Positions 31,991 to 46,270 of a stretch of DNA of 46,442 bases are shown piece after piece (the first letter of the stretch is position 1; each line of letters begins with the position of its first letter). The stretch comes from Clostridia bacterium (GTDB lineage Bacteria > Bacillota > Clostridia > Oscillospirales > Acutalibacteraceae): contig JAFYUI010000003.1 in NCBI GenBank assembly GCA_017549565.1, forward strand, positions 1 through 46,442, read 5' to 3'. The translations under genes were made by a program, and so were the position numbers. The notes below the pieces were generated by a model. That model searched no databases. It had not been told where the DNA came from and saw only the letters and a list, made by a program, of their open reading frames with translations.

Positions 31991-33029
31991 CGCCTTCACC
32001 CTTTACCGCAATGTACGAAAGCTTAACAATCAGCTCTTCTAAAATAACTCGGTCATTACCTGAAAAGGATTTTAACTGATTGTCAGCACCGGCAAGTGCC
32101 TTAAAGCTGAAATTTAGCTTATTAAAATCAAAATTTTTAAGGTTTCTTGTTGCATCCTTTAAAGTAAATGCGCGGTTGCCGTAACCAAAATCGCTTGCAA
32201 TTTTGTCGTTTTGATATGCGTGACCTTTACCCGAAAGAACACGGTGCATATCAACATAAACTGCTGTTATTGTAGATAAAATTATAATCGGTTCAACACG
32301 CATAAAGAAAAGGTCATCAAGTATAGCATAAGCCGATGATAAATCACAATTTAAAATTTTATCGGCAAGGCGGTAAATGTCGGCCTCCACCGTTTTGACC
32401 GACACGCTTTCAACCGTTTCTTTTGTAATCACTCCGCCCTCTACAAATGTGCAAAGCTTTTTAAGCTCGTTACTTAATGTGTCAATATCATCCCCTGCGG
32501 TTTCGATTAAATATCTTGCCGCAGTAATCTCCATTTTACAGCCACGCTTTACAGCCCCGTTTAAAAGCATTTTTTCAAGCTCGGCAGTTCGGCGGTGCTC
32601 TAAATTAACAACACAGGCGTTAACCTCGTCACACGCCTTTAAAATATTTTTAAATCTTCCCTTTTTATAATCAAAGGAAAAAGCGTCAAACCACAAAATA
32701 AACACTGTGGTATCAGGTGTTTCGCAAATTAAGGTTAAAAGCTTGTCAAAGTCAGCGCTTGTTGCCGAAACAAAGTCAAAATCCCTTAAAATTACACACT
32801 TTTTATCGTTTAAAACGGGGAACTGTAAAATAGCGTCATAAACCTCTTGAAGTTCTACCCCGTTTTCAAACCTTTGATAATTAAAAATATCGTCGGGGTC
32901 GGCAACGGGCTTTGTGATTTTTTCAACATAAAGCTTTTTTAAATAACCATCTTCACCGAAAAGCACAAAAACATTGCTTTTATCGGTTTTAATCACATTT
33001 TTAAGCGCTTCTTCATTAACGATTGCCAT
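31983..33029 (-). CDS. holA: DNA polymerase III subunit delta
   Basis: A 348-residue clamp-loader subunit that opens the sliding clamp during replication. It has the delta N-terminal fold signs: FVLFGEDGYLKKLYVEKI at the start, DDIFNYQRFENG, LQEVYDAILQFPVLNDKKCVILRDFDF, and the helical C-terminal collar domain (SAYAILDDLFFMRVEPIIILSTITAVYVDMHRVLS). As expected for delta there is no working ATP site. Its first 37 bases overlap the end of comEC. The comEC-holA order is widespread in bacteria, which supports the call. Confidence 0.92.
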   Translation of the reverse strand: MAIVNEEALKNVIKTDKSNVFVLFGEDGYLKKLYVEKITKPVADPDDIFNYQRFENGVELQEVYDAILQFPVLNDKKCVILRDFDFVSATSADFDKLLTLICETPDTTVFILWFDAFSFDYKKGRFKNILKACDEVNACVVNLEHRRTAELEKMLLNGAVKRGCKMEITAARYLIETAGDDIDTLSNELKKLCTFVEGGVITKETVESVSVKTVEADIYRLADKILNCDLSSAYAILDDLFFMRVEPIIILSTITAVYVDMHRVLSGKGHAYQNDKIASDFGYGNRAFTLKDATRNLKNFDFNKLNFSFKALAGADNQLKSFSGNDRVILEELIVKLSYIAVKGEGVD

Positions 33030-34486
33030 TTGCGTTTTCCCCCGCCTTCCTTAATTTTTTTATTTAATATACCCTTTAATTTTAACATATTATTTTGATT
33101 TGCACAAGCAAGCAAACCAAATAAAATTAAAAATATTGCAATTATCGACAAAATCAAAGCCCATTTCGGCAAATGAGAGGTTGCAAAGCTTACCTCGCCA
33201 AAAGAATTTATAACAAAATTCACATACCTAATAATAAGGTTTGCCATATAAAATACAATCGGTCTTAACGGCGGTATAATCAGTCCCACAATGCAAAGAC
33301 AAATTGCTACCGTTGTGGGCAGCGAAATTAAAAGATTTGTAATCACCGCCATATTTGAAACATAGCCAAAAACCAGTATAGTTACAGGTAATGTAAAAAG
33401 CAAAGCCGAAACACTTATAATAGCACTTGATGTTAATGCCGACAAAGGCCTTAATTTTATAATTTTATTTTGTGTTATAAATTCAATAATTGGGATAGCC
33501 ACCACCAAAATTCCAAAGGTGGACAGTACCGACAGCTGAAACGCTATATTAAAAATTATGAGCGGGTTAAAAAGCAAAATAACACTAACCGCCGTGCCCA
33601 AATTATTTTCGCTTTTACTTTGACGGTTTAAAAGCAAGGCAAGGGCAATTAGAATATATGTTATACCCGCCCTTAGCATTGACATTGTAAACCCGCAAAC
33701 TGCAAAAATAGCAATAACCGTTATAAAAATTATAAACGCTTTTAAATAGCGGTTGTAAAATAACTTGTTTAAAAAGTATGTTAAAAAGGACACAATAACG
33801 GCAAGGTGCATTCCCGATACAACCATTACATGCGCCACACCCGCTGCCTTTACATTGTTATAAAAGGTATCACTAAAATAACTTCTGTCCCCTGTTAAAA
33901 GTGCCAGCATTGTGGATGCCTCTTCACGACCAAAGCCGTCAAAAATTGCGGTTTTGATATATGCTTTCACCCTTGAAATACCACTTAATATAAAATCATT
34001 ATCAGAGGTTAAAACAATTTTATTTAAATCGCCCTTAAGAAATACACCCTCGGAGTAATAATTCAGTTGTATTTTTTCACTGAATTTTCCAAACTCTACC
34101 ACACCCTTAAAGGACTGTCCCTCCAAAATTTCAGGGCCTTTATAATAAAGCAAAACCCTGTCGTTGGCTTTCAGATACTCGCACTTTTTAACCTCGGCTG
34201 TAATGGCCATACCATCACCAATTGATAACTCTTCAACACATACAAATTCACCGCTTGCGGTCACGCCGTCCAGCTTTTCAAAACGGTCAATTTCGCTCAT
34301 CTTAAAGGAGGCCGACAAAACGGTCAAAAGCAATAAAACGCCACAAAAAATAAAAACTCCGCTTTGTTTTTTGTAAATCAAAATAAACATTAAAATTATA
34401 CACAAAGCAGAAAATATTATTGCTGTAAAAAACGAAAAATACACAAGTAAAACAGCTGTCGTTGACATTATCGCCAAAAGCAGCAT
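32993..34486 (-). CDS. comEC: ComEC/Rec2-type channel protein lacking the metallo-beta-lactamase domain
   Basis: A 497-residue membrane protein with an N-terminal OB-like region (about residues 60-160) and the competence domain of about nine helices. The GVAHVMVVSGMHLAVIVSFLTYFLNK motif and GFTMSMLRAGITYILIALALL are diagnostic. ComEC forms the channel for single-stranded DNA uptake. Many full ComEC proteins add a C-terminal metallo-beta-lactamase domain of about 250 residues; here the protein stops after the last helix with a basic tail. ATG 34486 is the only standard start, but the codons before it read K-R-P, the usual start of the family, so translation may begin upstream at a non-standard codon. 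No good ribosome binding site is seen. Confidence 0.85.
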   Translation of the reverse strand: MLLLAIMSTTAVLLVYFSFFTAIIFSALCIILMFILIYKKQSGVFIFCGVLLLLTVLSASFKMSEIDRFEKLDGVTASGEFVCVEELSIGDGMAITAEVKKCEYLKANDRVLLYYKGPEILEGQSFKGVVEFGKFSEKIQLNYYSEGVFLKGDLNKIVLTSDNDFILSGISRVKAYIKTAIFDGFGREEASTMLALLTGDRSYFSDTFYNNVKAAGVAHVMVVSGMHLAVIVSFLTYFLNKLFYNRYLKAFIIFITVIAIFAVCGFTMSMLRAGITYILIALALLLNRQSKSENNLGTAVSVILLFNPLIIFNIAFQLSVLSTFGILVVAIPIIEFITQNKIIKLRPLSALTSSAIISVSALLFTLPVTILVFGYVSNMAVITNLLISLPTTVAICLCIVGLIIPPLRPIVFYMANLIIRYVNFVINSFGEVSFATSHLPKWALILSIIAIFLILFGLLACANQNNMLKLKGILNKKIKEGGGKRKWQSLMKKRLKM

Positions 34487-34532
34487 TGGGCGTTTTAATA
34501 AATAATTTATGGCACATTCACCTCGATACCCG

Positions 34533-34561
34533 TTTACAAAACGAAAATTTTATTGTATAAT
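34533..34561 (+). promoter_or_regulatory. Promoter of the DUF2975-like gene
   Basis: TTTACA at 34533-34538, 17-bp spacer, TATAAT at 34556-34561. Confidence 0.75.
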
Positions 34562-34585
34562 AATTTCGCAAGGAGGATTTTTCCT

Positions 34586-35008
34586 ATGAACAAGCTTAAT
34601 TCTATTAAAATTTCAATTATACTTACAACCATAGCATTAATAGTGCTTATCGGCTTTGCGATAATGCTTCCTTGGCTGGTGACTTGGTATGTGCAATTAT
34701 CGGGCCGAAATGAAACACTTGCCACAACCATAATGGCAACCTGTTACCCCTGCGCACCGTTTACTGCGGTTATTCTGCTTTCACTTCGCAAAATTCTTAA
34801 AAATATCCGCGACAATAGCTTTAACAAAGAAAAAGACACAAAGCTTTTAAAATACATGTCAATTTGCTGCCTTATAATTTCAGTAATAACCTTAATTTCA
34901 GGCAAGCATTACCTGCCGTTTTTTATTGTTGCAGCAACATTTTTGTTTTTGGCTATTATAATTTTCGCCTTTAAAAGCATTACGGATGAGCTTTTTGCCG
35001 ACAAATAA
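34586..35008 (+). CDS. Four-helix membrane protein, DUF2975-like
   Basis: A 140-residue protein with four hydrophobic helices (about residues 8-32, 47-65, 87-105, 110-130). The spacing and the short charged loop after helix 2 (LRKILKNIRDNSFNKEKDTKLLKYM) look like the DUF2975 family, whose members often sit beside small Cro-like regulators; none is present here. ATG 34586 has AAGGAGG upstream, so the longer frame from 34553 is rejected. It is transcribed alone and followed by an imperfect terminator. Function unknown. Confidence 0.7.
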   Translation: MNKLNSIKISIILTTIALIVLIGFAIMLPWLVTWYVQLSGRNETLATTIMATCYPCAPFTAVILLSLRKILKNIRDNSFNKEKDTKLLKYMSICCLIISVITLISGKHYLPFFIVAATFLFLAIIIFAFKSITDELFADK

Positions 35009-35041
35009 CGACATAATTCGACAATGTTAGATTTAATTATA

Positions 35042-35073
35042 AAATAGGCCCTGCAATTATGCAAGGTCTATTT
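35042..35073 (+). terminator. Terminator after the DUF2975-like gene
   Basis: AAATAGGCC-c-TGCA (35042-35055) pairs with TGCA-a-GGTCTATTT (35060-35073), with one G-U pair and one mismatch; weak T-rich tail. Confidence 0.6.
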
Positions 35074-35093
35074 TAAATTTTGGTTTATTTTTA

Positions 35094-35122
35094 TTGACAA
35101 TAAAAAGTAATTGTGGTATGAT
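35094..35122 (+). promoter_or_regulatory. Promoter of the sortase operon
   Basis: TTGACA at 35094-35099, 17-bp spacer, TATGAT at 35117-35122. The leader ends in a TGGAGGT ribosome binding site. Confidence 0.8.
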
Positions 35123-35164
35123 TTATTTTAAGATATAATATTTAATACTTGGAGGTATTTTAAT

Positions 35165-35761
35165 ATGAAAAAAATTCTTTGCTTAGTTATGGCTTTGGCC
35201 TTAACATTTTCTTTATGCTTAACCGTTAATGCTGCAACCGGCATAAACGCAAATGAAAAGGCAGTTCTTGACGAACTTAAATCCAAAGAAGCTCTTGGTA
35301 AAAACGGTTGGTCATTCTTTATTCCTACAGAATATGTAACCGCTGCTGAAAATTATTTTAACACAATTGATATGACCGATGCTCAAAAAGACACTATATT
35401 AGGTCTTATCGCAGAAGGTAAAAAGATTGTAAAAGAGCAAGGCGACAAAGCCAATTTCACAGGTAAGGTTTACAACTTGAAAACTATGGAAATTCCAGCC
35501 AAGGAAAAGGTTCTTGAACTTGGTCAAAAAGCTTGTAAAGAGGTTGGCCTCACCTTAACCTACTCTTCAAAAGATAACAAAGTAATCATTAAAGACGCAA
35601 AAGGCGTAGTTGCTTTCGAAAACACACCTATCGTTAAAACCACAGGCGAAAGCTTCAATGTGACAAGCGCTGTTGTAATTACCGCAATTTCAGTTGTAAT
35701 TCTTGCAGGTGTTGCTTATTTAGTAATTGTTGCAAAGAAAAAGGCACTTTTCGTTAAATAA
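35165..35761 (+). CDS. Secreted protein with atypical C-terminal sorting signal (putative sortase substrate)
   Basis: A 198-residue protein. Residues 1-23 form a clear signal peptide cut after VNA. The mature part (24-155) is Lys-rich with a mix of helices and strands (for example FFIPTEYVTAAENYFNTIDMTDAQK). Residues 157-161 read VKTTG followed by Glu, then a hydrophobic segment (about 167-190) and a KKK tail. That layout matches a cell-wall sorting signal, but the motif is not LPXTG. The next gene, overlapping by one base, is a sortase, so this is its most likely substrate. If the motif is not cut, it is simply a membrane-anchored protein. I do not recognise the mature domain. Confidence 0.8.
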   Translation: MKKILCLVMALALTFSLCLTVNAATGINANEKAVLDELKSKEALGKNGWSFFIPTEYVTAAENYFNTIDMTDAQKDTILGLIAEGKKIVKEQGDKANFTGKVYNLKTMEIPAKEKVLELGQKACKEVGLTLTYSSKDNKVIIKDAKGVVAFENTPIVKTTGESFNVTSAVVITAISVVILAGVAYLVIVAKKKALFVK

Positions 35762-36453
35762 TGAAATTTAGGGAAAATATTACCCGCATCATGAAAAACT
35801 TTAAAAAGCCGATGAGGTTAATCATAACCCCATTGGCTTTTGCTTTTATATTAGCGTTGGCTGTTTTGCTCGTTTTAAATTTTGCAGTCGGCGATATAAT
35901 CGGTTATGGCAGCATTTTATTTATGCGCACCGAAGATTATGGTCAATATGATGCAGACAATATGTTTGAGCCGTCCTCGAAGGAATCAGGCACGGTTAAT
36001 ATTAAAGACATTAAATTTCCAAGCTATGAGCGAGTTTATGGTGAAATTGAAATTCATTCAGCCAATATACACTGTCCGCTAATTTACGGCGACAGTACCC
36101 GTGCGCTTTGGCGTGGTGCCTGTCAGTATATTGGCAGCACCATAATCGGCTATGGCGGTACAACAATGGTTGCCGCCCATGTAAACCGCCATTTTAAAAA
36201 TTTAAATCAGGTTGAAGTTGGCGATTTTATAAAGGTGACCACCACCTATGGCGTTTATTTATATAAGGTAAGCTATACCGGTGTACACTTCGCTTATGAT
36301 AACAGTGTTTATGATATGAACCGAAAAGATGAAAACCTTGTACTTTACACCTGTTATTATGAGCAAACCGCCCTTGGCAATGTTAAAAAACGCTTCTTTG
36401 TTTGTGCCGATTATTTTTCGGGCCCACTTATTGATAAAGGGGTGACAGGATAA
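35761..36453 (+). CDS. Sortase-family transpeptidase
   Basis: A 230-residue membrane-anchored enzyme. A single N-terminal helix (about 20-45) follows a basic segment. The catalytic triad is visible: His140 in MVAAHVN, Cys198 in LVLYTCYY, Arg211 in KKRFFVCADYF. The sequence AHVNRHFKNLNQVEVGDFI and VLYTCYY fit the sortase barrel. The class cannot be fixed by eye; the small size and the YTC form recall class B or D types. Its ATG overlaps the stop of the secreted protein gene (TAATG), and its own stop overlaps the next ATG the same way, so the three proteins are made together. Confidence 0.85.
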   Translation: MKFRENITRIMKNFKKPMRLIITPLAFAFILALAVLLVLNFAVGDIIGYGSILFMRTEDYGQYDADNMFEPSSKESGTVNIKDIKFPSYERVYGEIEIHSANIHCPLIYGDSTRALWRGACQYIGSTIIGYGGTTMVAAHVNRHFKNLNQVEVGDFIKVTTTYGVYLYKVSYTGVHFAYDNSVYDMNRKDENLVLYTCYYEQTALGNVKKRFFVCADYFSGPLIDKGVTG

Positions 36454-37292
36454 TGACAAAAGAAAAGCTTTCATCACTTATTTCTCATATTTTGGCCCTG
36501 TTTTTAACCTTTACGCTTTTCGGTGTTACAGTTTGTGCGCTTATCCTTTGCACCGTTGCCAATCCCAAAATGCTTGATGATGCGATTTTAAACAGCAACT
36601 ATGTAAAACCCTTAAAGCAGGAAATAGCAGATAAATGGGATAACCTTGCGGCAATTTGCGGTATGGAGGAGCGAGATGAACTTTTGGCTCTCCTGACCGA
36701 GGAAAGAATAGAAAATGACAGCCGTGAATATTTTAAAAAGGCATATAGTGGCGAAACGATTGATACCGCCGCTTTAAAAGAAAAGGTACATAAGGTGGTC
36801 AGTGATTATGCCTATAAAAACGACTGGGGACTTATTCCAAAAGCTGAATTAGAGCAAAATATAAACGACCTTGTAAACAGCTGTATGGATGAATATGATT
36901 TATCTGTTAAAGTTCGGCTTATTCCAAAGCTTTTGGGCACAGTCACTAAATTCAAAAAAATTGCGGCAATCGGTTTTGTGGGCTCGGCAATATTATCTAT
37001 TGGTATTATGGTTTTCATTTTCTTTTTGCAACACAAACGCCTAAAAACCGCGTTTTATACTTTTACAGCTTTTGGCGGCAATTCAGCGCTTTACTTATTT
37101 ATGGTTTTGTTTGTTTTATTGGGCGACCTTATAAACCGCATACCTATTGAAGAATCGGCCCTTTATAACCTTGCAAGCGGTTATTTGCAAAGCATATTTA
37201 CTTTGGTTATAATAATTACCGTTTTGCTTTTAATTTTATCGCTATTATCTTTAATTTTATATTTAAAACCGCAAAAAAATAAGAACACCTAA
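36453..37292 (+). CDS. Four-helix membrane protein linked to the sortase
   Basis: A 279-residue protein with one N-terminal hydrophobic helix (about 10-32), an extracytoplasmic helical, charged domain of about 130 residues, and three C-terminal helices (about 170-190, 205-225, 242-270). The outside domain (NYVKPLKQEIADKWDNLAAICGMEERDELLALLTEERIEND) has no motif I know. It is the third member of a fully coupled operon with the sortase and its likely substrate, so a role in presenting or anchoring the substrate is a reasonable guess. The stop lies within the terminator stem. Confidence 0.75.
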   Translation: MTKEKLSSLISHILALFLTFTLFGVTVCALILCTVANPKMLDDAILNSNYVKPLKQEIADKWDNLAAICGMEERDELLALLTEERIENDSREYFKKAYSGETIDTAALKEKVHKVVSDYAYKNDWGLIPKAELEQNINDLVNSCMDEYDLSVKVRLIPKLLGTVTKFKKIAAIGFVGSAILSIGIMVFIFFLQHKRLKTAFYTFTAFGGNSALYLFMVLFVLLGDLINRIPIEESALYNLASGYLQSIFTLVIIITVLLLILSLLSLILYLKPQKNKNT

Positions 37293-37310
37293 ACGGTGTT
37301 CTTATTTTTT
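37275..37310. terminator. Bidirectional terminator after the sortase operon
   Basis: Fifteen-bp stem 37275-37289 with 37295-37309, five-base loop. It also serves the convergent lipoprotein gene. Confidence 0.9.
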
Positions 37311-37314
37311 GTTT

Positions 37315-39411
37315 TTATTTTGTAAACTCACTGATGCAGTCATTATATGCTTTTAATGCCTGTGCTTCGTTAAATGCAGTTTTATAAAGCTTTGCACCCA
37401 GCACTGTAAACGAACCTGTCTTGCCAAACGATTCAGCGTTATTTGATGGATTAATACCTATACCCAAAGCATTAAAGCCTGCGTTTCCAAGGTTGAATTC
37501 ACCTTTACCAAATGCGCCGCTGGAAGCGTGCTTTCCATCGTAATAAATGCTTAACTTATTGGCCTTTTTGTCGTATGTAGCAACAAGGTGAACAAGTTGT
37601 TTTTCTGAAAGGTAAGCGGGGCCTTCATTTGGCCATTTGCGTGCCGCCAGTGCAAAAGAATCTAATTTATTAAGCGCACTATTAGCATCCGTACTACCCA
37701 AAGCAAATTGCACTTGGCCTGTGCCTTCTTGATTACGACTTAAAATTCCAACACCGCCCACATTTGTGTTAGCAAACAATGGGGCGTCTTCACTTGCTTG
37801 TTTATTAATTTGAACTAACAATTCAAATGTGGCGCCATCCATCAACCACTTTGAATAATCATTTGCGTTTTTAAACGGCAAGTTAACAAGCAAACCTTCT
37901 TTTGCACTATCGCCGGTAAAAGCAGTAACATCATATTTATTCCCGTTATAATTAACTGTCGTTTTACCAATTGTGCCCTTCGTCATCGTAACAGTAAGGT
38001 TACTTGTTTTATCATATGGTTTGCCGTCCTTAAAGCCCAAATCAAACCATGCTTCAGGTAACTTATCGGCGGATTTTACTGCTTCAACCTTTAACGAAGG
38101 ATAGGTTGGATAGGTTGTGCTCCAATCGGGAATTCTTTGAATTTCACTATCAGACGGATTATAAGGAAGCGCAAAGGTTACATTATGCTTACTAAATTCA
38201 ATGAACTGGCGCACATTATCGCTGTTTACTAACCACTTATTAGCATCGTTTGCCTCTAAACGCGAAATTTCAAAATGAGACATTGGCAAAAGCGCATAGG
38301 TTGGGTCAACTTTAGTATAGAAATCTACTGTGCCGTTTTGTCCGTGGTGCGACATTTGGAGAATATCGCTCTTTAAATAATCGCCAAAACATTGTACCAC
38401 TTGATTCATTCCGCGTGTATCAGCGTCACCTGTTATCATTATTCGTTGACCGGCAACATCAATTGTAAATACAAGCGATGAATCATTAAGTTCGCTTAAA
38501 GTGCCAGTGTTAAAACTTAACGGATAAAGGTCTTCATAAGAAAACAACATTTCAACAACAGCATTGCGGATATAATATTTATCACCTGTGTGTGGTTTAA
38601 TTACCGGAACATTTGCATAATATTCTGACAAACATTCTCTAAACCGAGCAAAACCATAAAGCGATTCACTTGGTTTGTAATATTGTTCTTCATCTTTTGG
38701 GAAATTATAATAAATTTTTTCAATTTCAACTTGGTCATGAAAATCTGTTGCAAATGTATTAAACACACCTGTGTGATCGCTGTGGTTATGGGTAATTATC
38801 CACGCTGCAATAACAGGTTTTTTTGTACCTTCGGGTGACTGTTCGCGAAGTATATTCATAAGATTGTTAGAATCAACAGAATATGGGTCGCCTTGACCGC
38901 CGTCAATAATAATAAAGCTGCCATCATCAAGACGAATTATAAACCCAAGACCCGAATACCCCGACATATTGTCGCATTGCATACCTGTAAATAAGGTTTG
39001 GATATTCTTGCTTTTATATTTATTATCTTGTTCGCGTGTGAAAAGTTCGCCCCTGGGTTCGGCAACAATTCTAACTGAAGCATTTCCAGGCATATATGAA
39101 AGTGAAATTGTTGTAACCTTGTTGTAAAGAGTTGCAAAAAGGTTGTCACCTATTTGATTTTCGGTGTGCTTTTTAAATCCGGCATCCGACAATATAGAAA
39201 GGCAATTTTCATAATCCTGTTTTTCGGCATAAAGTAACCTTTGTACATACTTATGGCCTTCTTCAAATTCCAACGAATAGTCATTCTGCAGACCGGAATT
39301 TTTAATTTCTGTGAATACCGTGGTAGAAAGATTGGCTTCGCTGTTTTTGCAAGCGGTAAAAAACCCCGCAATTAAAACAAGCACAAGAAAAAGCGATAAA
39401 AGTTTTTTCAT
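37315..39411 (-). CDS. Metallo-beta-lactamase/LamG lipoprotein (paralogue 1)
   Basis: A 698-residue surface lipoprotein. Signal peptide with lipobox FFTAC, lipid on Cys21. Residues 40-120 form a conserved region seen in all three paralogues (KQDYENCLSILSDAGF, NQIGDNLFATL). The metallo-beta-lactamase domain (about 150-390) has FIIIDGG, ITHNHSDHTG with H208, H210, D212, H213, MITGDAD with D329, and LQMSHHGQNGT with H355/H356. That last motif is typical of ComEC-type domains. The C-terminal 240 residues are LamG-like (FELLVQI, LVATYDKKANKLSIYYDG, LYKTAFNEAQALKAYND), a sugar- or protein-binding jelly roll. Start at 39411, nine bases after AAAGGA. Transcribed after paralogue 2 across a 32-bp gap. 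Substrate unknown. Confidence 0.85.
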   Translation of the reverse strand: MKKLLSLFLVLVLIAGFFTACKNSEANLSTTVFTEIKNSGLQNDYSLEFEEGHKYVQRLLYAEKQDYENCLSILSDAGFKKHTENQIGDNLFATLYNKVTTISLSYMPGNASVRIVAEPRGELFTREQDNKYKSKNIQTLFTGMQCDNMSGYSGLGFIIRLDDGSFIIIDGGQGDPYSVDSNNLMNILREQSPEGTKKPVIAAWIITHNHSDHTGVFNTFATDFHDQVEIEKIYYNFPKDEEQYYKPSESLYGFARFRECLSEYYANVPVIKPHTGDKYYIRNAVVEMLFSYEDLYPLSFNTGTLSELNDSSLVFTIDVAGQRIMITGDADTRGMNQVVQCFGDYLKSDILQMSHHGQNGTVDFYTKVDPTYALLPMSHFEISRLEANDANKWLVNSDNVRQFIEFSKHNVTFALPYNPSDSEIQRIPDWSTTYPTYPSLKVEAVKSADKLPEAWFDLGFKDGKPYDKTSNLTVTMTKGTIGKTTVNYNGNKYDVTAFTGDSAKEGLLVNLPFKNANDYSKWLMDGATFELLVQINKQASEDAPLFANTNVGGVGILSRNQEGTGQVQFALGSTDANSALNKLDSFALAARKWPNEGPAYLSEKQLVHLVATYDKKANKLSIYYDGKHASSGAFGKGEFNLGNAGFNALGIGINPSNNAESFGKTGSFTVLGAKLYKTAFNEAQALKAYNDCISEFTK

Positions 39412-39443
39412 TTTGAAAATTCCTTTCATTATATAATAAAAAA

Positions 39444-40925
39444 TTAATGCAATGGATATATTTTATAAATGGTATTTTGGGTTGGAACTCGGTCATAAAT
39501 ATCCGCATCGGACGGGTTATAAGGAAGCGGGAATGTGACATTAGACCTGCCAAATTCAATAAATTGACGAACATTTTTACTGTTTACAAGCCACCTGTTT
39601 GCATCGTTATAGGTGAAACGACTTGGGATTGTATATGAAACAGGCAAAATAGCGTAAGTAGGATTAACTAAGGAATAAAATTCAACTGTTCCGTTTTGAC
39701 CATGGTGTGACATTTGAAGAATATCACACTTTAAATAATTACCGTAATTTCTTGTTGCAAAATTCATTCCCTTTGCATCTACGTCGCCTGTTATCATCAT
39801 TTTTTGCCCACCAATTTCAACGGTGAATATAAGTGATGATTCGTTAAGGTCTTTGGCGCCCCCGTTTTCAATACTGTCAGGGAAAAGGTCTTCATAAGAA
39901 AACAATACTTCAATAACGGCATTGCGGATATAATATCTTTCACCAGCATGTGGTCTTATTGTTGTGGCTTGTTGGTAATAATTCATACAATCTTTAAATT
40001 GATTATATCCGTAATATTTATCGGTAAACATAAACTTTGCTGCTATTTGCAATGCTTCTTCGGTTGGGAAATTATAATAAAAGCTTTCTATTATAACTTC
40101 TTTATGAAAATCCTTAGAAAAGGCATTAAATACACCAATATGGTCATCGTGACAGTGGGTGAAAATCCACGCTGCAATAACAGGTTTTTCTGTGCCTGCG
40201 GGTGACTGGTCACGAAGTATTTTCATAAGCTTATTCGAATCAACCGAATTATAATCGCCGCCACCGCCATCAATAATAATAAAGCTACCATCATCAAGAC
40301 GAATTATAAACCCAAGCCCTGAAGAAGCGGTCGAATTTTCACCTTTCATACCTGTAAACAAGCTTTGAATGTTTTGACTTTTATATTTATTTTCACTTTT
40401 GCGGGGATATAAGTCACCAAGCGGTTCCGAAATGATTTTTAATGCCTTATTGCCGGGGGTATATGAAATAGAAACAAAAGTGGTTTTCTTAATTAATGTA
40501 GTAAATAAATTATCCCCTATTTTATTTTCATCATATTTAGTAAAACCATCTTTAATTAAACTGCTAAGATATCCGTCATAATCTTGCTTTGTTGCAAACG
40601 ACATTTTCTTAACAAAGCGATGTTCTTGTTTTTGGTCCCTTACATAATCGGTATTGAGATTATAATTTGGTAACTCGTGCGGTTGAAGTTTTATTTGGGA
40701 AGATGTTTCAGAAGAGGTTTGTGAACTGTTGGTGTTTGGAATGGGAGCAACAGTGGAACTATTGTTAGAAATTGTCGTATCGGTGCTTGTCGAATTAGAA
40801 CTTTCGGTGTTTGATATATAATTATTATAATCGTCTTCAAAATATTGTTTTGAATTATCTTTACAAGCCGAAAGCAAATTTACCACCAAAACAAGCATAA
40901 TAACTGTAACGAAAATTTTCTTCAA
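39444..40925 (-). CDS. Metallo-beta-lactamase lipoprotein without LamG domain (paralogue 2)
   Basis: A 493-residue lipoprotein (lipobox LLSAC) with a Ser/Thr/Asn-rich linker (about 30-80), the conserved N-terminal region (YDGYLSSLIKDGFTKYDENKIGDNLFTTL) and a complete metallo-beta-lactamase domain: FIIIDGGGGD, FTHCHDDHIG, MITGDVD, LQMSHHGQNGT. It ends at YKIYPLH, exactly where its paralogues pass into the LamG-like part (YPTYPSLKVE). So the binding domain is absent while the enzyme is whole. A TTG start at 40925 is favoured by GAGGAT upstream and gives a clean signal peptide; earlier starts would add a hydrophilic extension that would spoil it. Own perfect promoter. Confidence 0.83.
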   Translation of the reverse strand: MKKIFVTVIMLVLVVNLLSACKDNSKQYFEDDYNNYISNTESSNSTSTDTTISNNSSTVAPIPNTNSSQTSSETSSQIKLQPHELPNYNLNTDYVRDQKQEHRFVKKMSFATKQDYDGYLSSLIKDGFTKYDENKIGDNLFTTLIKKTTFVSISYTPGNKALKIISEPLGDLYPRKSENKYKSQNIQSLFTGMKGENSTASSGLGFIIRLDDGSFIIIDGGGGDYNSVDSNKLMKILRDQSPAGTEKPVIAAWIFTHCHDDHIGVFNAFSKDFHKEVIIESFYYNFPTEEALQIAAKFMFTDKYYGYNQFKDCMNYYQQATTIRPHAGERYYIRNAVIEVLFSYEDLFPDSIENGGAKDLNESSLIFTVEIGGQKMMITGDVDAKGMNFATRNYGNYLKCDILQMSHHGQNGTVEFYSLVNPTYAILPVSYTIPSRFTYNDANRWLVNSKNVRQFIEFGRSNVTFPLPYNPSDADIYDRVPTQNTIYKIYPLH

Positions 40926-40968
40926 TTTAGCATCCTCTTCATTTCTTTTAAACAAATTTAACATTAAT

Positions 40969-40997
40969 ATTATAACTTTTTTACGATTTATTGTCAA
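40969..40997 (-). promoter_or_regulatory. Perfect consensus promoter of paralogues 2 and 1
   Basis: Minus strand: TTGACA (40997-40992), 17-bp spacer, TATAAT (40974-40969). It lies right after the terminator of paralogue 3. Confidence 0.88.
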
Positions 40998-41002
40998 TAA
41001 AA

Positions 41003-41034
41003 AAACACCCAACTTCCACACTTGAAAGTTGGGC
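41003..41034 (-). terminator. Terminator after paralogue 3
   Basis: Stem CCCAACTT (41008-41015) with AAGTTGGG (41026-41033) and a GTTTTTTTATT tail on the minus strand. Confidence 0.85.
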
Positions 41035-41047
41035 ATAATTATGTTTT

Positions 41048-43435
41048 TTACTTTATAATAGAGGCAATTAAGTCGGTATATTCTTTTAAAACTTGGGCTT
41101 CAGTAAGGGCTGTTTTATAAAGTTTTGCGCCAATAACTGTTAAAGAACCCGTCTTACCAAACGATTCGGATGGGTAAGGTGGATTAAGACCTATCCCCAA
41201 AACATCGTAGCTTGCATTGCCAAGTTTGAATTCGCCGTTGCCATACGAACCAACCGAAACATGCTTGCCATTATAATATAAATTAAGTGTATTGCTTGCT
41301 TTATCATAAGTACCAACACAATGAACAAGTTGCTTTTCGGGAATTGCTACAGGTCCCACCGCAACATTGGTAGTAGCGGCGCTGGCATAATTATTAGAAG
41401 AATTTGTCACACCGCTTGAACTTGTTGTGCCTAATTGGAACTGAAGTTGGTTTTTGCCGTTTGCAACACGGTAATAAAGCGATGCGCCACCGGCATAAAC
41501 ATTTGTGAAAAATCCCGATGTTCCGGTTGGAGATTTATTAACTTGAACCAACAATTCAAATGTGCAACCGTTCATTAACCAATTTTTGTATTGAGTTTGG
41601 TTTGTGAAAGGCAATTTTACAAGCAACCCTTCGCCATTGCTATCGGCCGTAAGTGCTGTAACATTATATGACTTGCTATTATAATTTACAGTTGTTGTAC
41701 CAATTGTGCCACCCGGTTTTGTAACGGTTAAATTACCCATCTTATCATAAGCTTGTCCGTTTTTAAACCCTAAATCAAACCATGCAGTCGGAACGCTGGA
41801 TGCAGGTTTTACAGGTTCAACCTTTAAAGTCGGATATACAGGGTATTTGGTAGCTGTATTTGGAATTTTTTGTATTACATCGTCAGATGGATTATACGGC
41901 AGAGGTATGCTTACCGTATATTTACTAAATTCAATAACTTGGCGAAGATTTGGACTATTAACAAGCCATTGATTACCCGGATATCCGGTGTTTGTAAAAA
42001 GATACTCAAAGCTTTTAAAATTAACGGGCAACAGTGCATAAGTTGGGTCAACAGCTGAATAAAAACTAACTTCACTGTTCCAACCATGGTGTGACATTTG
42101 AAGAATATCGCTCTTTAAATAACTGCCATAATTTCTTGCGGCAAATTTCATTCCGGAATTTTCAACATCACCGGTAACCATGATACTTTGGCCGCCGACA
42201 TCTACAGTGAAAATAAGAGATGCGGCATTCAAATCTTCAAAATCGCCGTTATCAAAATTACTTGGGAAAAGGTTTTCATAAGAAAACAAAATTTCAATCA
42301 CAGCATTTCGTATGTAATATTTATCCCCTGTATAAGTCCTAATTTTAGGAACATTGGGATAATACTGTGTCATTGCTTTTTTGAATTGATTATATCGATA
42401 AATTGTATCATCAAACATATAGTCATCGGTCTTTTTAATACCTGTTTCAGTTGGGAAATTGCAATAAAAACTTTCAATAACAACTTTATCACGATAATCA
42501 ATTGAAAAAGTGTTAAAAAGGCCCATATGGTCACCATGGCAATGTGTGAATATCCACGCTGCAATAACCGGCTTTTTAGTGCCCGAAGGGGACTGTTCTT
42601 TCAAAATATTCAAAAGCTTTGTAGAATCTACATGATTTGGATCACTCAAGCCACCATCAATTATAATAAAACTTCCGTCATCCAAACGGATAACCAAGCC
42701 CAACCCATAATCAACAACGGTTGTAACACCATTTATGCCTGTTAATACCGGTTGTATCTCCTTGCTTTGATACTTGTTATCTTGTTTGCGGGGGTATAAA
42801 TAAGTTTTTGGCTCAGCTATAACTGTTGTTACAGCATCTTTTTGCATAAAACTTATTGTTACTATTGTAACTTGGTTTACAAGAGTGGTAAACAGATTAC
42901 TTCCTATTTTATTGTCAGAATATTTAGTGAAGCCCTTTTTAATCAAGTCATTAAGATATTTATTATAATCATCAGCCGTTGTATTTGTTGCCCTTGATAT
43001 GTATCTATCGTCCTGCTTAAAGGTTTGTGTTGTACCTTTTCCGTATTCGAATTTAGGAAGGTCTTTTGCCTTAAGAGAACCCAGTTCCTCATAATCTATC
43101 GGTGGCACAGTCGGCGGAGTATATGATGAGTTGTTTGATGAATTATTAGAATTTGCCGAACTGTTAGAGTTAACTGAATTGTTTGAATTAACAAAGCTGT
43201 TAGAGTTAACTGAGTTATTTGAATTTGTCAAACCACCGGAATTTGTATCAGTAGGAATATTAATGTGTTCATCATTAGATGTAGTGCTGTCAGTACTTGA
43301 ATTGTTTGAATTTTGCTGTTGTGCATAAAAATCGTCGTAATTGTCGACCAAATATTGATTATTGCCACTTTTACAAGCGGAAAAAGCACAAACCATTAAA
43401 ACCGCAACCAAATAAAACGATAATATTTTCTTCAT
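41048..43435 (-). CDS. Metallo-beta-lactamase/LamG lipoprotein (paralogue 3)
   Basis: A 795-residue lipoprotein (lipobox CAFSAC). A long Asn/Ser linker (about 38-110, repeats of NSNNS) sets the catalytic part away from the membrane. Then come the conserved N-terminal region (DYNKYLNDLIKKGFTKYSDNKIGSNLFTTL), the metallo-beta-lactamase domain (FIIIDGG, FTHCHGDHMG, MVTGDVE, LQMSHHGWNSE) and the LamG-like C-terminus (FELLVQVNKS, LVHCVGTYDKASNTLNLYYNG). Note MVTGDVE where the others have GDAD/GDVD: the Asp ligand is kept, the next acidic residue differs. Start with AAAGGGGAT upstream. Transcribed alone and terminated before paralogue 2. Confidence 0.85.
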   Translation of the reverse strand: MKKILSFYLVAVLMVCAFSACKSGNNQYLVDNYDDFYAQQQNSNNSSTDSTTSNDEHINIPTDTNSGGLTNSNNSVNSNSFVNSNNSVNSNSSANSNNSSNNSSYTPPTVPPIDYEELGSLKAKDLPKFEYGKGTTQTFKQDDRYISRATNTTADDYNKYLNDLIKKGFTKYSDNKIGSNLFTTLVNQVTIVTISFMQKDAVTTVIAEPKTYLYPRKQDNKYQSKEIQPVLTGINGVTTVVDYGLGLVIRLDDGSFIIIDGGLSDPNHVDSTKLLNILKEQSPSGTKKPVIAAWIFTHCHGDHMGLFNTFSIDYRDKVVIESFYCNFPTETGIKKTDDYMFDDTIYRYNQFKKAMTQYYPNVPKIRTYTGDKYYIRNAVIEILFSYENLFPSNFDNGDFEDLNAASLIFTVDVGGQSIMVTGDVENSGMKFAARNYGSYLKSDILQMSHHGWNSEVSFYSAVDPTYALLPVNFKSFEYLFTNTGYPGNQWLVNSPNLRQVIEFSKYTVSIPLPYNPSDDVIQKIPNTATKYPVYPTLKVEPVKPASSVPTAWFDLGFKNGQAYDKMGNLTVTKPGGTIGTTTVNYNSKSYNVTALTADSNGEGLLVKLPFTNQTQYKNWLMNGCTFELLVQVNKSPTGTSGFFTNVYAGGASLYYRVANGKNQLQFQLGTTSSSGVTNSSNNYASAATTNVAVGPVAIPEKQLVHCVGTYDKASNTLNLYYNGKHVSVGSYGNGEFKLGNASYDVLGIGLNPPYPSESFGKTGSLTVIGAKLYKTALTEAQVLKEYTDLIASIIK
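43131..43328. repeat. Asn/Ser-rich low-complexity linker coding tract
   Basis: Imperfect repeats of AATTC/GTTAGA-type units (minus strand coding N-S-N-N-S), with visible 18- to 36-base duplications. Likely variable in length between strains. Confidence 0.7.
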
Positions 43436-43495
43436 TTTATATCCCCTTTAATATTGCCAAAAATTTCCTATTTGATATTTATCGAATTCATTGTA

Positions 43496-43501
43496 ATTAT
43501 A
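43496..43501 (-). promoter_or_regulatory. -10 box of the paralogue 3 promoter
   Basis: Minus-strand TATAAT with a possible TTGTTT 18 bases upstream. It lies about 60 bases before the start codon. Confidence 0.55.
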
Positions 43502-43534
43502 TCACATAAAAAATCCTAAAAACAAGCAAAAACA

Positions 43535-44068
43535 TCATTTTAGTTCAAACATTTTCTTACTATATGCTAAAAGGTTTTTGTTTCCAACCCTTATAACATA
43601 AAAATCATCATCCAAATCAGACATGCGATAAACCGCATCTTCATACATATTATATAAATTTGACCATTTGTAATTTAGAGTATCGGGAATACCATACTTC
43701 CCACTTCTTGCAAACACCAAGGTGTATGGTCTATAACGGCGACGAGTGCGAATTTGCGGCAATTTGTCAACAACCCAATCATTTGTTACCTGAAAATTGC
43801 CTTTTCTAATTCTTATTGCGTCTTTAACGGCATTACAAAACTCATATAAATAAAGAAGCCCCAATATAGTACACATTACAATACCTATAATTTTTAAAGC
43901 TTCTTTGTTAGGAAGTATTACATTTATAAAAAGAATTGTGAAAAAGGCAAGACACACCACCATAAATGCATAAAATGGCAACGCCACTAAAAACATCCAT
44001 AAATTTTTAGCATAGTACTTTTGCAACTCTTTTTGAATTATTTCGGTTGTTAGAATTTCTTTTTCCAT
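43535..44068 (-). CDS. Two-helix membrane protein (paralogue A)
   Basis: A 177-residue protein. After a charged N-terminal segment (MEKEILTTEIIQKELQKYYAKN) come two hydrophobic helices (about 24-50 and 60-82) and a C-terminal domain with YTLVFARSGKYGIPDTLNYKWSNLYNMYEDAVYRMSDLDDDFYVI. It is clearly paralogous to the gene at 44427: same length, same MEKE opening, same PDT-Y-WS and DxFY-V motifs. Start at 44068 (GGTGGG upstream) because the promoter -10 box at 44091-44096 excludes the longer frame. No family recognised. Confidence 0.75.
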   Translation of the reverse strand: MEKEILTTEIIQKELQKYYAKNLWMFLVALPFYAFMVVCLAFFTILFINVILPNKEALKIIGIVMCTILGLLYLYEFCNAVKDAIRIRKGNFQVTNDWVVDKLPQIRTRRRYRPYTLVFARSGKYGIPDTLNYKWSNLYNMYEDAVYRMSDLDDDFYVIRVGNKNLLAYSKKMFELK

Positions 44069-44090
44069 TTGCCCACCGACCTTTAAATGT

Positions 44091-44119
44091 ATTATAGCAT
44101 AAAAGCGGAGGAGACGCAA
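44091..44119 (-). promoter_or_regulatory. Repeat-borne promoter module, copy 1
   Basis: Minus strand: TTGCGT (44119-44114), 17-bp spacer, extended -10 TGC-TATAAT (44096-44091). The same module occurs at 44998-45026 and 46126-46154. Confidence 0.8.
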
Positions 44120-44120
44120 G

Positions 44121-44320
44121 TATGTTTGCACGGAGTGCAACATCGTTGGGCGTTAGCCCACATCGTTTGTGCGAAGCTGGGCACTGTTTGCCGAAGACAA
44201 CATCGTTTACACCAAAAGGTGCAACCTCGTTTTGTGTCCGCCAAGGCGGAATGATGTTTTTGCTTCGCAAAAAATGATGTTGACCTATCGGTCAAACGAA
44301 GTTGTGTCCTGCGGACACAA
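44121..44320. repeat. Array of small perfect hairpins with a repeated spacer
   Basis: At least six clear stem-loops in 200 bases: TTGCAC/GTGCAA (44126-44140), TGGGC/GCCCA (44147-44160), TCCGCC/GGCGGA (44237-44250), TTTTTGC/GCAAAAA (44257-44273), TTGACC/GGTCAA (44280-44295), TTGTGTCC/GGACACAA (44302-44320). Between 44161 and 44225 lie more, partly decayed ones (for example CACC-aaaa-GGTG). The gaps carry variants of AACATCGTT or AATGATGTT. Loops are three or four bases. It is not coding and not a CRISPR array. Confidence 0.75.
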
Positions 44321-44325
44321 ACACA

Positions 44326-44363
44326 AAAAGAAAAAGCAAGTCAAATGACTTGCTTTTCTTTTT
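44326..44363 (-). terminator. Terminator after paralogue B
   Basis: AAGCAAGTCA (44334-44343) with TGACTTGCTT (44346-44355), extended by A-rich and T-rich flanks on both sides. Confidence 0.85.
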
Positions 44364-44426
44364 GGGAGTTTTGAACTTAATTACACGAATGAAATGTGCC
44401 TGAAAACCGTTAATTTTCCTTATTTG

Positions 44427-44978
44427 TTAGTTGCCGCCGCTATCCAATTCTTCAAATTCAAAAAAATCCAGACAATAAGCATAGAGAATTTTACCATTAT
44501 TCTTATTTGACACTGCAAGATAAAACTTATCTCCACATTTTGAACGCTCATAAACTTGTTTGCCTTCCATTGAAAACATATCGCTCCATACATAATTGGT
44601 ATCTGGCAATTTATATTCCCCATAACCCGAAAAATACAGATTGTATGTTTGATAGCTGTTGACTCTCTCCTTTATTTTTTCTATTCTTATATCCATACCC
44701 ACTAGCTTATCTTCCACTATACAAAAACTGCTGAACCACATCAATAATTGGGCGATTTCTATTCCTTTTTTAAGCGAAATAATAAACATTACAAACACGC
44801 AAAAATACATACCCAACTTATAAAACAAAGCAATATCATCTCTGCCGAAAATGAATATAGAAAAGGCAAAAAACACTAAAAAAGGCAAAAAAATACCAAA
44901 AAAATACATAACTTTCTTCATTACTTCATTCTGCAAATCTTTTTTAATTATATTCCTCGTAAGTTTTTCTTTTTCCAT
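44427..44978 (-). CDS. Two-helix membrane protein (paralogue B)
   Basis: A 183-residue protein with the same plan as paralogue A: MEKEKLTRNIIKKDLQNE, two hydrophobic helices (about 23-45 and 53-75), then a C-terminal domain with YNLYFSGYGEYKLPDTNYVWSDMFSMEGKQVYERSKCGDKFYLAV. Divergence is high outside the motifs, so the duplication is not recent although the promoter modules are nearly identical. Start at 44978 because the -10 box lies at 44998-45003, leaving a leader of only about 13 nt. Function unknown; a membrane sensor-like or stress role is only a guess. Confidence 0.75.
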   Translation of the reverse strand: MEKEKLTRNIIKKDLQNEVMKKVMYFFGIFLPFLVFFAFSIFIFGRDDIALFYKLGMYFCVFVMFIISLKKGIEIAQLLMWFSSFCIVEDKLVGMDIRIEKIKERVNSYQTYNLYFSGYGEYKLPDTNYVWSDMFSMEGKQVYERSKCGDKFYLAVSNKNNGKILYAYCLDFFEFEELDSGGN

Positions 44979-44997
44979 TTGCTCACCGCCTATGCGT

Positions 44998-45026
44998 ATT
45001 ATAGCATAAAAGCGGTGGAGCCGCAA
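44998..45026 (-). promoter_or_regulatory. Repeat-borne promoter module, copy 2
   Basis: Minus strand: TTGCGG (45026-45021), 17-bp spacer, extended -10 TGC-TATAAT (45003-44998). Confidence 0.8.
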
Positions 45027-45149
45027 TACCTCTTCACTATTCACTATTACTTCTTACTTTCCAAAAATCCCGTTCACGTTTTAGTGAAAAGTGAAGAGTG
45101 AAGAAGTAATAAGTAAAAATCCCGCCCACTTACGTGAACGGGATTTTTG
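45005..45149. repeat. Intergenic repeat of the CTTCACT/ATTACTTCTT family, copy 2
   Basis: About 145 bases, alike to copy 3 at 46133-46273 over most of its length. Parts: the promoter module spacer and -35, a CTTCACTATTCACTATTACT arm, then CAAAAATCCCGTTCACGT (45062-45079), a GTGAAAAGTGAAGAGTGAAG segment that mirrors the first arm, and ACGTGAACGGGATTTTTG (45132-45149) pairing with the previous 18 bases. A second CCCG-containing arm at 45116-45125 can also pair with the end, forming a terminator-like hairpin. Confidence 0.75.
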
Positions 45150-45411
45150 TCTCTCTTCTAAGAAAAAGAACTGGATGAAAACCGAGGATTATTTTCTCTT
45201 TTTATATTTTTTTATTAAATATATAATACACCAAACAAAGGAAAAAGGTAATTATAAATTGTCCCGTAATACCTGTGCCATCACGCAACCATTCGGGATA
45301 AAGGACTGTGCGAATTGCAAATAATAAATTATTATAGTTTAAAGAAGTTTCGTTTTAGTTTTTGCTAAAATTATCACTCACCGTAAGTATCATAAAGTGT
45401 TTGATTATTGT
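45150..45411. other. Intergenic region, mostly featureless
   Basis: AT-rich. It holds a possible -10 box (TATAAT, 45222-45227) and one short candidate reading frame (45259-45324). No RNA gene or repeat was recognised. Confidence 0.5.
45259..45324 (+). CDS. Possible 21-residue Cys-containing peptide
   Basis: A TTG-started frame with Cys6, Cys17 and Cys20 (ending CANCK) behind AAAGGAAAAAGG, ten bases upstream, and a -10-like TATAAT at 45222-45227 without a good -35. It could be a small peptide gene, a remnant of a larger gene, or chance. The frame stays open upstream to 45091 but runs through a repeat there. Confidence 0.2.
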   Translation: MSRNTCAITQPFGIKDCANCK

Positions 45412-46035
45412 TTATACTGGAAGTCCTAAAGATTTATTATCTGATTTGTAATCGGTATTTTTATTTTCAGAAACAAATGGTAAAGTGTTTGCGGTATTTT
45501 TGATTATCATTGCCACTTGCTCAGCGCATAGTTTAATGCCCTCTTCGGTGAGATGAATGGTGTCCTGCGAAATATAACGGTAAACGTCGGTCGAAACCAA
45601 GCTGTGCAAATCATTTATAATAACACCCTTTTCACGAAGTTTGGGAACAATTATTTGGTTATAGCGTTCAATTAGCTTATTGCTATCATACTGATTTTCA
45701 GGTCTCACAGGAGTTGTGGTTGCAAAAATAACCTTATCGTATTTATTTAATAATATATCAGCTATTCTTAATATATTACTAATATATTCTTCCTCGCTAG
45801 AAAAAGCGCCATCGCCGAAAAGATTGCAAATATCCCAAAGCCCATTGTTCCAATGAACGATATTTGTGCCTTCCATTTGTTCTTTCCAATCAAATATTCC
45901 GCGAAGGGTATATTTTGCAAAACGACAATTTTCTTCCGGCTGAAAAACCTCAAAATCACTGCCAAGAAGCTCAGGTACCATCTTGCCGTATCCTATCGCG
46001 CGAATAGAATCCCCAAGCAATGTAACTTTAATCAT
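45412..46035 (-). CDS. SGNH/GDSL-family hydrolase
   Basis: A 207-residue cytoplasmic esterase-like protein. Block I is TLLGDSIRAIGYG with the nucleophile Ser10; block III is HWNNGLWD (Asn63 or Asn64); block V is DTIHLTEEG with Asp158 and His161. Block II Gly is in the LRGIFDW region. No signal peptide. Members remove acyl groups from sugars, lipids or small molecules; no substrate can be read from the context. ATG with AAGGAGTG upstream. Transcribed from the third copy of the shared promoter module, with a leader of about 84 nt. Confidence 0.82.
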   Translation of the reverse strand: MIKVTLLGDSIRAIGYGKMVPELLGSDFEVFQPEENCRFAKYTLRGIFDWKEQMEGTNIVHWNNGLWDICNLFGDGAFSSEEEYISNILRIADILLNKYDKVIFATTTPVRPENQYDSNKLIERYNQIIVPKLREKGVIINDLHSLVSTDVYRYISQDTIHLTEEGIKLCAEQVAMIIKNTANTLPFVSENKNTDYKSDNKSLGLPV

Positions 46036-46125
46036 AAGTTATCACTCCTTAAATATGGGTTTTGTGTTGATATAATTATATAGATAATTGATGTGAACTT
46101 CTTTTTTTGTTCGTCTTATAGGTGT

Positions 46126-46154
46126 ATTATAGCATAAAAGCAGTGAAGTCGCAA
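46126..46154 (-). promoter_or_regulatory. Repeat-borne promoter module, copy 3
   Basis: Minus strand: TTGCGA (46154-46149), 17-bp spacer, extended -10 TGC-TATAAT (46131-46126). Confidence 0.8.
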
Positions 46155-46270
46155 TACCTCTTCACTATTCACTATTACTTCTTACCTTCCAAAAATCCCG
46201 TTCTTAAAGTTTTAGTGAAAAGTGAAGAGTGAAAAAGTAAAATCCCGAACGCTTTCGCATTCGGGATTTT

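Follow-up and report, generated by a model that had tools for sequence, protein, structure and literature searches.

Three paralogous genes of a Clostridia bacterium (contig JAFYUI010000003.1) are predicted to encode lipoproteins, P1, P2, and P3, which may be surface two-metal hydrolases that take a substituent, perhaps a phosphodiester, off a glycan, a reading to which we assign a probability of about 0.4. They lie in a stretch of 46,442 nucleotides, the whole of which is called the window here. What this reading takes from sequence is the anchor, the domains, the metal site, the type of motif II, the spread of the family, and the neighbors of its genes (12/27 loci). We infer the substrate class from those neighbors, and the phosphodiester as the cleaved bond by analogy, because the nearest solved enzyme is Pce (CbpE), the pneumococcal esterase that acts on the phosphorylcholine of teichoic acid.

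A lipid anchor, together with an Asn/Ser stalk in P2 and P3, would keep the enzyme outside the membrane, while a LamG-like domain, where present, would probably bind polymer, as a dockerin or CBM would in relatives, and an N-terminal module could perhaps position the substrate. A metal-bound hydroxide would then hydrolyze the glycan substituent, most likely a phosphodiester, as Pce removes phosphorylcholine, and removal of the substituent would let glycoside hydrolases proceed. Of wider reach, and on balance rather unlikely, is the proposal of a new carbohydrate-active class in which metallo-beta-lactamase (MBL) fold hydrolases with a DUF6591-like module remove phosphodiester-linked (or sulfate, or ester) glycan substituents, its forms being lipoproteins with stalks, dockerin and CBM proteins, and signal-less forms in Clostridia sugar operons. 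To our knowledge, there is no established carbohydrate-active family with an MBL fold and a substituent-removing role. If the proposal is true, an overlooked metal hydrolase family serves glycan breakdown in some Clostridia, and genes labeled "MBL fold" or "ComEC family" gain a testable role.

Gene Organization and Surface Anchoring

The longest ORFs, all on the minus strand, extend over 37315-39429 for P1 (704 aa), 39444-41036 for P2 (530 aa), and 41048-43435 for P3 (795 aa), with P2 and P3 being 56 and 52% identical to P1, respectively. Two of the starts probably lie further downstream: P1 is likely to begin at ATG 39411, which is preceded by AAAGGA (gene 37315..39411), and P2 at TTG 40925 (493 aa; gene 39444..40925), behind a terminator-like hairpin and a promoter. 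Once these revised starts are used, P1, P2, and P3 alike have the lipobox Cys at position 21, and the lipoboxes (FTAC, LSAC, and FSAC in P1 to P3), read from sequence, are those of bacterial lipoproteins. The ORFs and lipoboxes therefore agree with the first-pass annotation of this DNA, which described three paralogous surface lipoproteins. It also gave them a long Asn/Ser stalk, which is found in P2 and P3 but not in P1. P2 and P3 begin with a leader with a lipobox, a QYFEDDYNNY-like stretch, and an Asn/Ser stalk that recur in other lipoproteins encoded by the same genome, at L154:5535-7070 (minus strand) and L152:4328-5446 (plus strand), and an own-genome lipoprotein with a P2-like leader matches AXE1 in part (41.7 bits over 56 residues).

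Between P3 and P2 stands a terminator-like hairpin of 14 pairs with a T tail (41005..41036, minus strand), followed by a sigma-70 type promoter for P2-P1, TTGACA-17-TATAAT (40969..40997, minus strand; 12/12), both by consensus match. Since the perfect promoter (40997-40969) comes after the hairpin (41036-41005), P3 may be transcribed separately from P2-P1; in number, such sites show no excess in the region, with five terminator-like sites compared to 5.1 in shuffles and 26 sigma-70 type sites of all qualities compared to 26.2. Another terminator-like hairpin, of 16 pairs (37274..37310), lies between P1 and the convergent gene at 36453-37292. Elsewhere in the window, two small proteins (43535-44143 and 44427-45044, minus strand) start alike and have no Pfam match over cut-off, and an interspersed repeat of ~100 bases occurs at 44978-45075 and 46106-46203 (88% alike), and 43 bases of it recur at 44077-44119. 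Parts of this repeat match several places in related genomes.

Domain Architecture

The MBL domain spans 38122..39033 in P1, 39477..40400 in P2, and 41855..42787 in P3 (all minus strand), with motif II reading HNHSDH (38773-38790), HCHDDH (40140-40157), and HCHGDH (42527-42544), respectively. Each protein contains FIIIDGG, HxHxDH, GD, and SHHG motifs, and the full H-x-H-x-D-H metal site first reported for all three is thus present in each. Pfam Lactamase_B is matched over cut-off by P1 (30.7 bits) and P2 (33.7 bits) and under it by P3 (15.4 bits, cut-off 22.7). Across 19 aligned rows representing 17 distinct sequences, no variation is seen (19/19) at D176, H214, H216, D218, H219, N315, D335, H361, and H362 in P1 numbering, and the marks of the MBL superfamily (motif I Asp, HxHxDH, motif IV Asp, and motif V His) are found in P1-P3 and in every row. 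As these rows were pre-picked from ORFs already holding SHHG or HxHxDH, the less biased figure is that for 42 distinct members picked by profile alone from the family loci analyzed, in which motif II is HxHxDH in 38/42, HxDxDH in 3/42, and lost in 1/42. SHHG, although present in P1-P3 as originally noted, is not a family constant, with AHHG, PHHG, THHG, or IHHG taking its place in other members. Tandem MBL copies, within one protein or in adjoining genes, were observed at L014, L040, L127, and L057, one copy being without motif II and HHG. Identity as a class B beta-lactamase was considered and rejected, the NCBIfam domain matches being weak only, and the matches to the anti-phage MBL models Avs1a and 6A-MBL are far under their cut-offs. 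In the accessible parts of two papers, an MBL-fold D-Ala-D-Ala carboxypeptidase is named (PMC12419801) and a secreted "Metallo-beta-lactamase superfamily" protein is included in a Teredinibacter secretome table (PMC12055684).

The N-terminal module of ~77 residues (39034..39264 in P1, 40401..40631 in P2, and 42788..43018 in P3, minus strand) carries GF.K, IG.NLF.TL, and EP in all three proteins, in line with the conserved region initially described. Judged by profile, it is a putative distant relative of DUF6591 (PF20234), which is matched weakly by 6/17 isolated modules (best E 0.0012) and by the P3 module at E 0.00081 (19.7 bits, cut-off 27.1), with no family module passing the curated cut-off in the bit-scored matches. 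The module's model also finds MBL-less proteins, namely L098, a true DUF6591 protein (339.9 bits), and L091, which has zinc ribbons. A profile comparison of the module with the ends of MBL-less proteins gave a probability of 96.2 (E 2.7e-9), these ends having been found with the same model and so not being independent. The weak DUF6591 matches and the finding of L098 lead us to call it a DUF6591-like module. P1's own module has no Pfam match, but the earlier view that this region was undescribed is weakened by the matches of other modules and of L098.

The C-terminal 250 residues of P1 (37315..38064) and P3 (41048..41797), both on the minus strand, are LamG-like by profile. Laminin_G_3 (PF13385) matches 4/4 isolated C-terminal domains (P1, P3, L006, and L007; best E 8.1e-9), with the isolated P1 domain at 26.9 bits, just under the curated cut-off of 27.6. 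LamG was not matched when full-length P1 and P3 were scanned with Pfam, and a PDB search with a profile of the domain was likewise empty at E 1. The isolated matches nonetheless support the initial assignment of a LamG-like domain to two of the proteins. P2 had been said to stop exactly at the domain border, and indeed does so; as L004, L027, L028, L008, and L037 all end there too, this is a normal form with no truncation. Other relatives have other partners, such as dockerin I in L009 (= L110; 28.0 bits, cut-off 22.9) and CBM_4_9 in L029 (34.8 bits, cut-off 25.9), while dockerin, the mark of a cellulosome component, is absent from P1-P3 in the Pfam scan. Dockerin matches number two in the genome of P1-P3 and 26 in G024, the home of L009. 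These 26 dockerin I matches fall in a genome of ~1.9 Mb.

Family Distribution and History

No Pfam or NCBIfam model spans the whole architecture in the proteins scanned, which fits its earlier description as unnamed, and database and literature searches did not place it in a known family with a known substrate. Within the available portions of the literature consulted, mostly non-subscription papers, no such family appears (PMC8579336, PMC4929436, PMC2914790, PMC2930009, PMC5066984, PMC6299819, PMC12455585, PMC12419801, PMC12055684). At E below 1e-10, P3 has a relative in 8/37 genomes of the genus, its own included, with the match in G025 beginning behind the N-terminal module. Across the class, the module's model has matches in 47/391 genomes at E 0.01 or better, and module and MBL core occur together in at least 19/391 by our own count among the matches listed; the figure of 367/391 in the class tally is, in our reading, mostly MBL-only background. 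Six family loci are from MAGs of Clostridia, Clostridiales, or Oscillospiraceae, and three of these MAGs come from the gut of water buffalo, water deer, and sheep. Relatives occur as lipoproteins, signal-less forms, dockerin fusions, or CBM fusions, and many of them are without a lipobox, have the module at their very start, and seem cytosolic (by a simple pattern, among 42 members).

In a tree of 42 rows, P1, P2, and P3 each belong to a separate supported group that also contains members of other species: P1 with L006 and L007 (with LamG), P2 with L027, L028, and L004, the last being the fourth copy of the same genome (no LamG), and P3 with L008 and L037 (no LamG). The cluster is therefore not a recent triplication but a set of old lineages, and on this tree the LamG-like domain would have changed at least two times. 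In the closest relative, G016, the DNA is 86-94% identical to the window up to 37292, where the match ends inside the terminator-like hairpin at 37274..37310. Just past this point, G016 has an open frame of 79 aa, with other genes after it, in which a short lipobox leader and the stretch behind it share 51% identity with residues 1-49 of P3 (site at C45 end/C29 start, L151 ~2405-2551), and the MBL parts are missing at this matching place. The leader may be a remnant of a P1-P3-like lipoprotein, or part of another one. The P1-P3 trait is accessory.

Genomic Neighborhood of the Family

By our own reading, a sugar-related gene lies within four genes of the family gene at 12/27 loci. The order at L040 is a permease-like gene (20.5 bits, under the cut-off of 26.4), GH16, GH3, the MBL gene, GH2, and AXE1, and the permeases at L114 resemble those of L040. 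GH94 adjoins L116, which also has GH2 and GH3 by homology, and GH3 by homology adjoins the dockerin-bearing L110. Melibiase, Raffinose_syn, and trehalase are near L118, GH116 near L112, GH127 near L124, and an MGH1-like gene near L115, while L128 has a pectate-lyase-like neighbor assigned from the Pfam tally. ThuA adjoins L126, which also has Gfo/Idh by homology, and Gfo/Idh lies beside L117. Gfo/Idh/MocA oxidoreductases, which can make lactones, are found near L115, L117, and L126. The fourth paralog of the genome (L153) has nagA as the third gene away (TIGR00221, 360.5 bits, cut-off 225.65), accompanied, in between or farther out, by an APH-type kinase and a ROK match under threshold. The remaining 15/27 loci, again by our own reading and with several on short contigs, are without a sugar gene within four genes (the window, L035, L036, L037, L038, L039, L111, L119, L120, L121, L122, L123, L125, L127, and L129), with GH43 being the fifth gene away at L039. 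In the window itself, no sugar-related match over cut-off was found among the scanned genes from 32993 to 46035; a weak GDSL match occupies 45412-46035 on this contig, whose last base is 46442.

A leave-one-locus-out homology count, with queries chosen from the family loci after inspection and only between-locus matches counted, gave 10/83 neighbor ORFs and 3/117 control ORFs (Fisher p 0.009). With same-clade support (L040, L114, L115, L116) barred, the figures are 7/83 and 3/117 (p 0.096), and by locus they are 6/19 and 3/20 (p 0.27). The neighbor set comprised 83 ORFs of at least 130 aa lying no more than three genes away, drawn from 19 of 20 stretches, L113 being left out as it has no module gene. 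Control ORFs came from 20 contig-start stretches of the same 17 genomes, some of them short; 117 of 145 were used and 28 were left out by hand, mostly short ones with two long or at an edge, and no query matches any of those left out. Pfam tallies of neighbors and controls showed no clean enrichment among the families listed (25 of 115 and 25 of 155). Overall, the neighbor excess is weak, and the link between the family and sugar genes is no more than suggestive.

Likely Substrates and Alternative Explanations

An external polymer (DNA, polysaccharide, or phospho-polymer) was the substrate first envisaged and is the natural reading for P1-P3, but DNA seems a poorer candidate than a glycan substituent, chiefly on the weak evidence of the genes beside relatives. 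Many relatives are without a lipobox and seemingly cytosolic, so that not every member can act on a bulky external polymer. The presence of signal-less forms in sugar operons suggests oligosaccharides, once taken up by the cell, as a further substrate of the family.

The best PDB match of P1, P2, and P3 taken separately is Pce/CbpE, ahead of ComEC, whereas the profile of the family places two ComEC chains first (9vc6 at 44.0 bits and 9ic4 at 42.4) and CbpE third (12qj, 41.6). The best NCBIfam matches are also ComEC models, all under cut-off: ComEC_Rec2 for P2 (40.8 bits) and P3 (36.0 bits; cut-off 190) and another ComEC model for P1 (35.5 bits). Both the NCBIfam matches and the order in the family profile point to a branch common to Pce and ComEC. 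The label "ComEC-type" given to the domain at first therefore survives as regards this branch but not as regards motif II, which is HxHxDH, nor the top PDB match; the MBL domain is somewhat more like Pce, which takes phosphate groups off cell-wall sugars, than like the DNA-cutting part of ComEC. The dockerin-bearing relative and a cytosolic relative each have no MBL match in the PDB at E 0.1.

With Pce/CbpE as the nearest solved enzyme, P1-P3 could instead remodel the envelope, trimming phosphodiester decorations from teichoic acid or a surface glycan, whether of the cell itself or of a neighbor. We regard this as unlikely, although Pce/CbpE is itself described as an extracellular enzyme that carries a binding module (PMC4929436), the lipid anchor would hold the enzyme at the cell, and the window cluster is free of sugar-use genes over cut-off. 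Some relatives, however, adjoin catabolic sugar genes and one has a dockerin, the absence of the MBL parts at the matching place of G016 fits an accessory trait, and Pfam scans of P1-P3 and relatives found no choline-binding repeats.

Slightly less probable is that P1-P3 are surface nucleases, ComEC-like MBL lipoproteins that break down extracellular DNA as a nutrient or partner the cell's own MBL-less ComEC. P1 is 2.8 kb from comEC, and the ComEC of the window (32993-34486, minus strand, 497 aa) is over cut-off for the Competence domain only; together with the ComEC models and chains named above, this speaks for a nuclease. On the other hand, motif II is HxHxDH and not HxDxDH, the Pfam scans show no DNA-binding domain, the partners being LamG, CBM, and dockerin, and a ComEC match is present in 33/37 genomes of the genus compared to a P3 relative in 8/37, so ComEC persists without the P1-P3 family. 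The ComEC frames of the genus, at 212-585 aa, leave no room for an MBL domain in addition, although some of them may be cut by a contig end. The related idea of a split ComEC, with lipoproteins replacing its missing MBL part, was lowered because the short ComEC is found in 33/37 genomes and the family is strong in only 8/37.

Another MBL activity on sugar compounds, that of a sulfatase, lactonase, or carboxylic esterase, is likewise unlikely, since despite HxHxDH in the MBLs of sulfatase families S3 and S4, as stated in the accessible part of PMC5066984, an arylsulfatase chain among the family-profile matches (8gyg, 24.6 bits, 8.4e-5), and the Gfo/Idh/MocA oxidoreductases near three relatives, the 8gyg match is far weaker than that of Pce or ComEC and S4 AtsA groups near ribonuclease Z (PMC5066984).

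Comparison with Known Systems

The C-terminal MBL domain of ComEC/Rec2 (9vc6, 9ic4) resembles P1-P3 in the stretch with N, GD, and HHG. The nuclease domains of ComEC have HxDxDH as motif II, according to the available sections of PMC8579336 and PMC12455585, whereas P1-P3 have HxHxDH in its place, with HxDxDH found in 3/42 other members. P1-P3 also have an anchor of their own and lack the fusion to a Competence channel or OB fold, the Pfam scan showing no Competence domain and the scores for the ComEC models of NCBIfam being far under cut-off. Annotating secreted MBL proteins as ComEC-like can be misleading, a single residue of motif II setting most of them apart. The motif III ligand is given as His in Pce and Asn in ComEC in the portion of PMC8579336 seen, yet N315 of P1 pairs with an Asn of CbpE in our alignment, which may therefore be off at this point.

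DUF6591 (PF20234) differs in that its relative here is joined to an MBL domain. The dockerin-bearing carbohydrate enzymes of Clostridia are similar to the relative L009 (L110) and not to P1-P3. Pce/CbpE (PDB 1wra, 2bib, 12qj) shares with P1-P3 the HxHxDH motif II, an extracellular location, and a modular build with a binding domain, though the match is weak at 28.7-32.9 bits. Unlike Pce/CbpE, P1-P3 have a lipid anchor and an extra N-terminal module, and the partners within their family are LamG, dockerin, or CBM.
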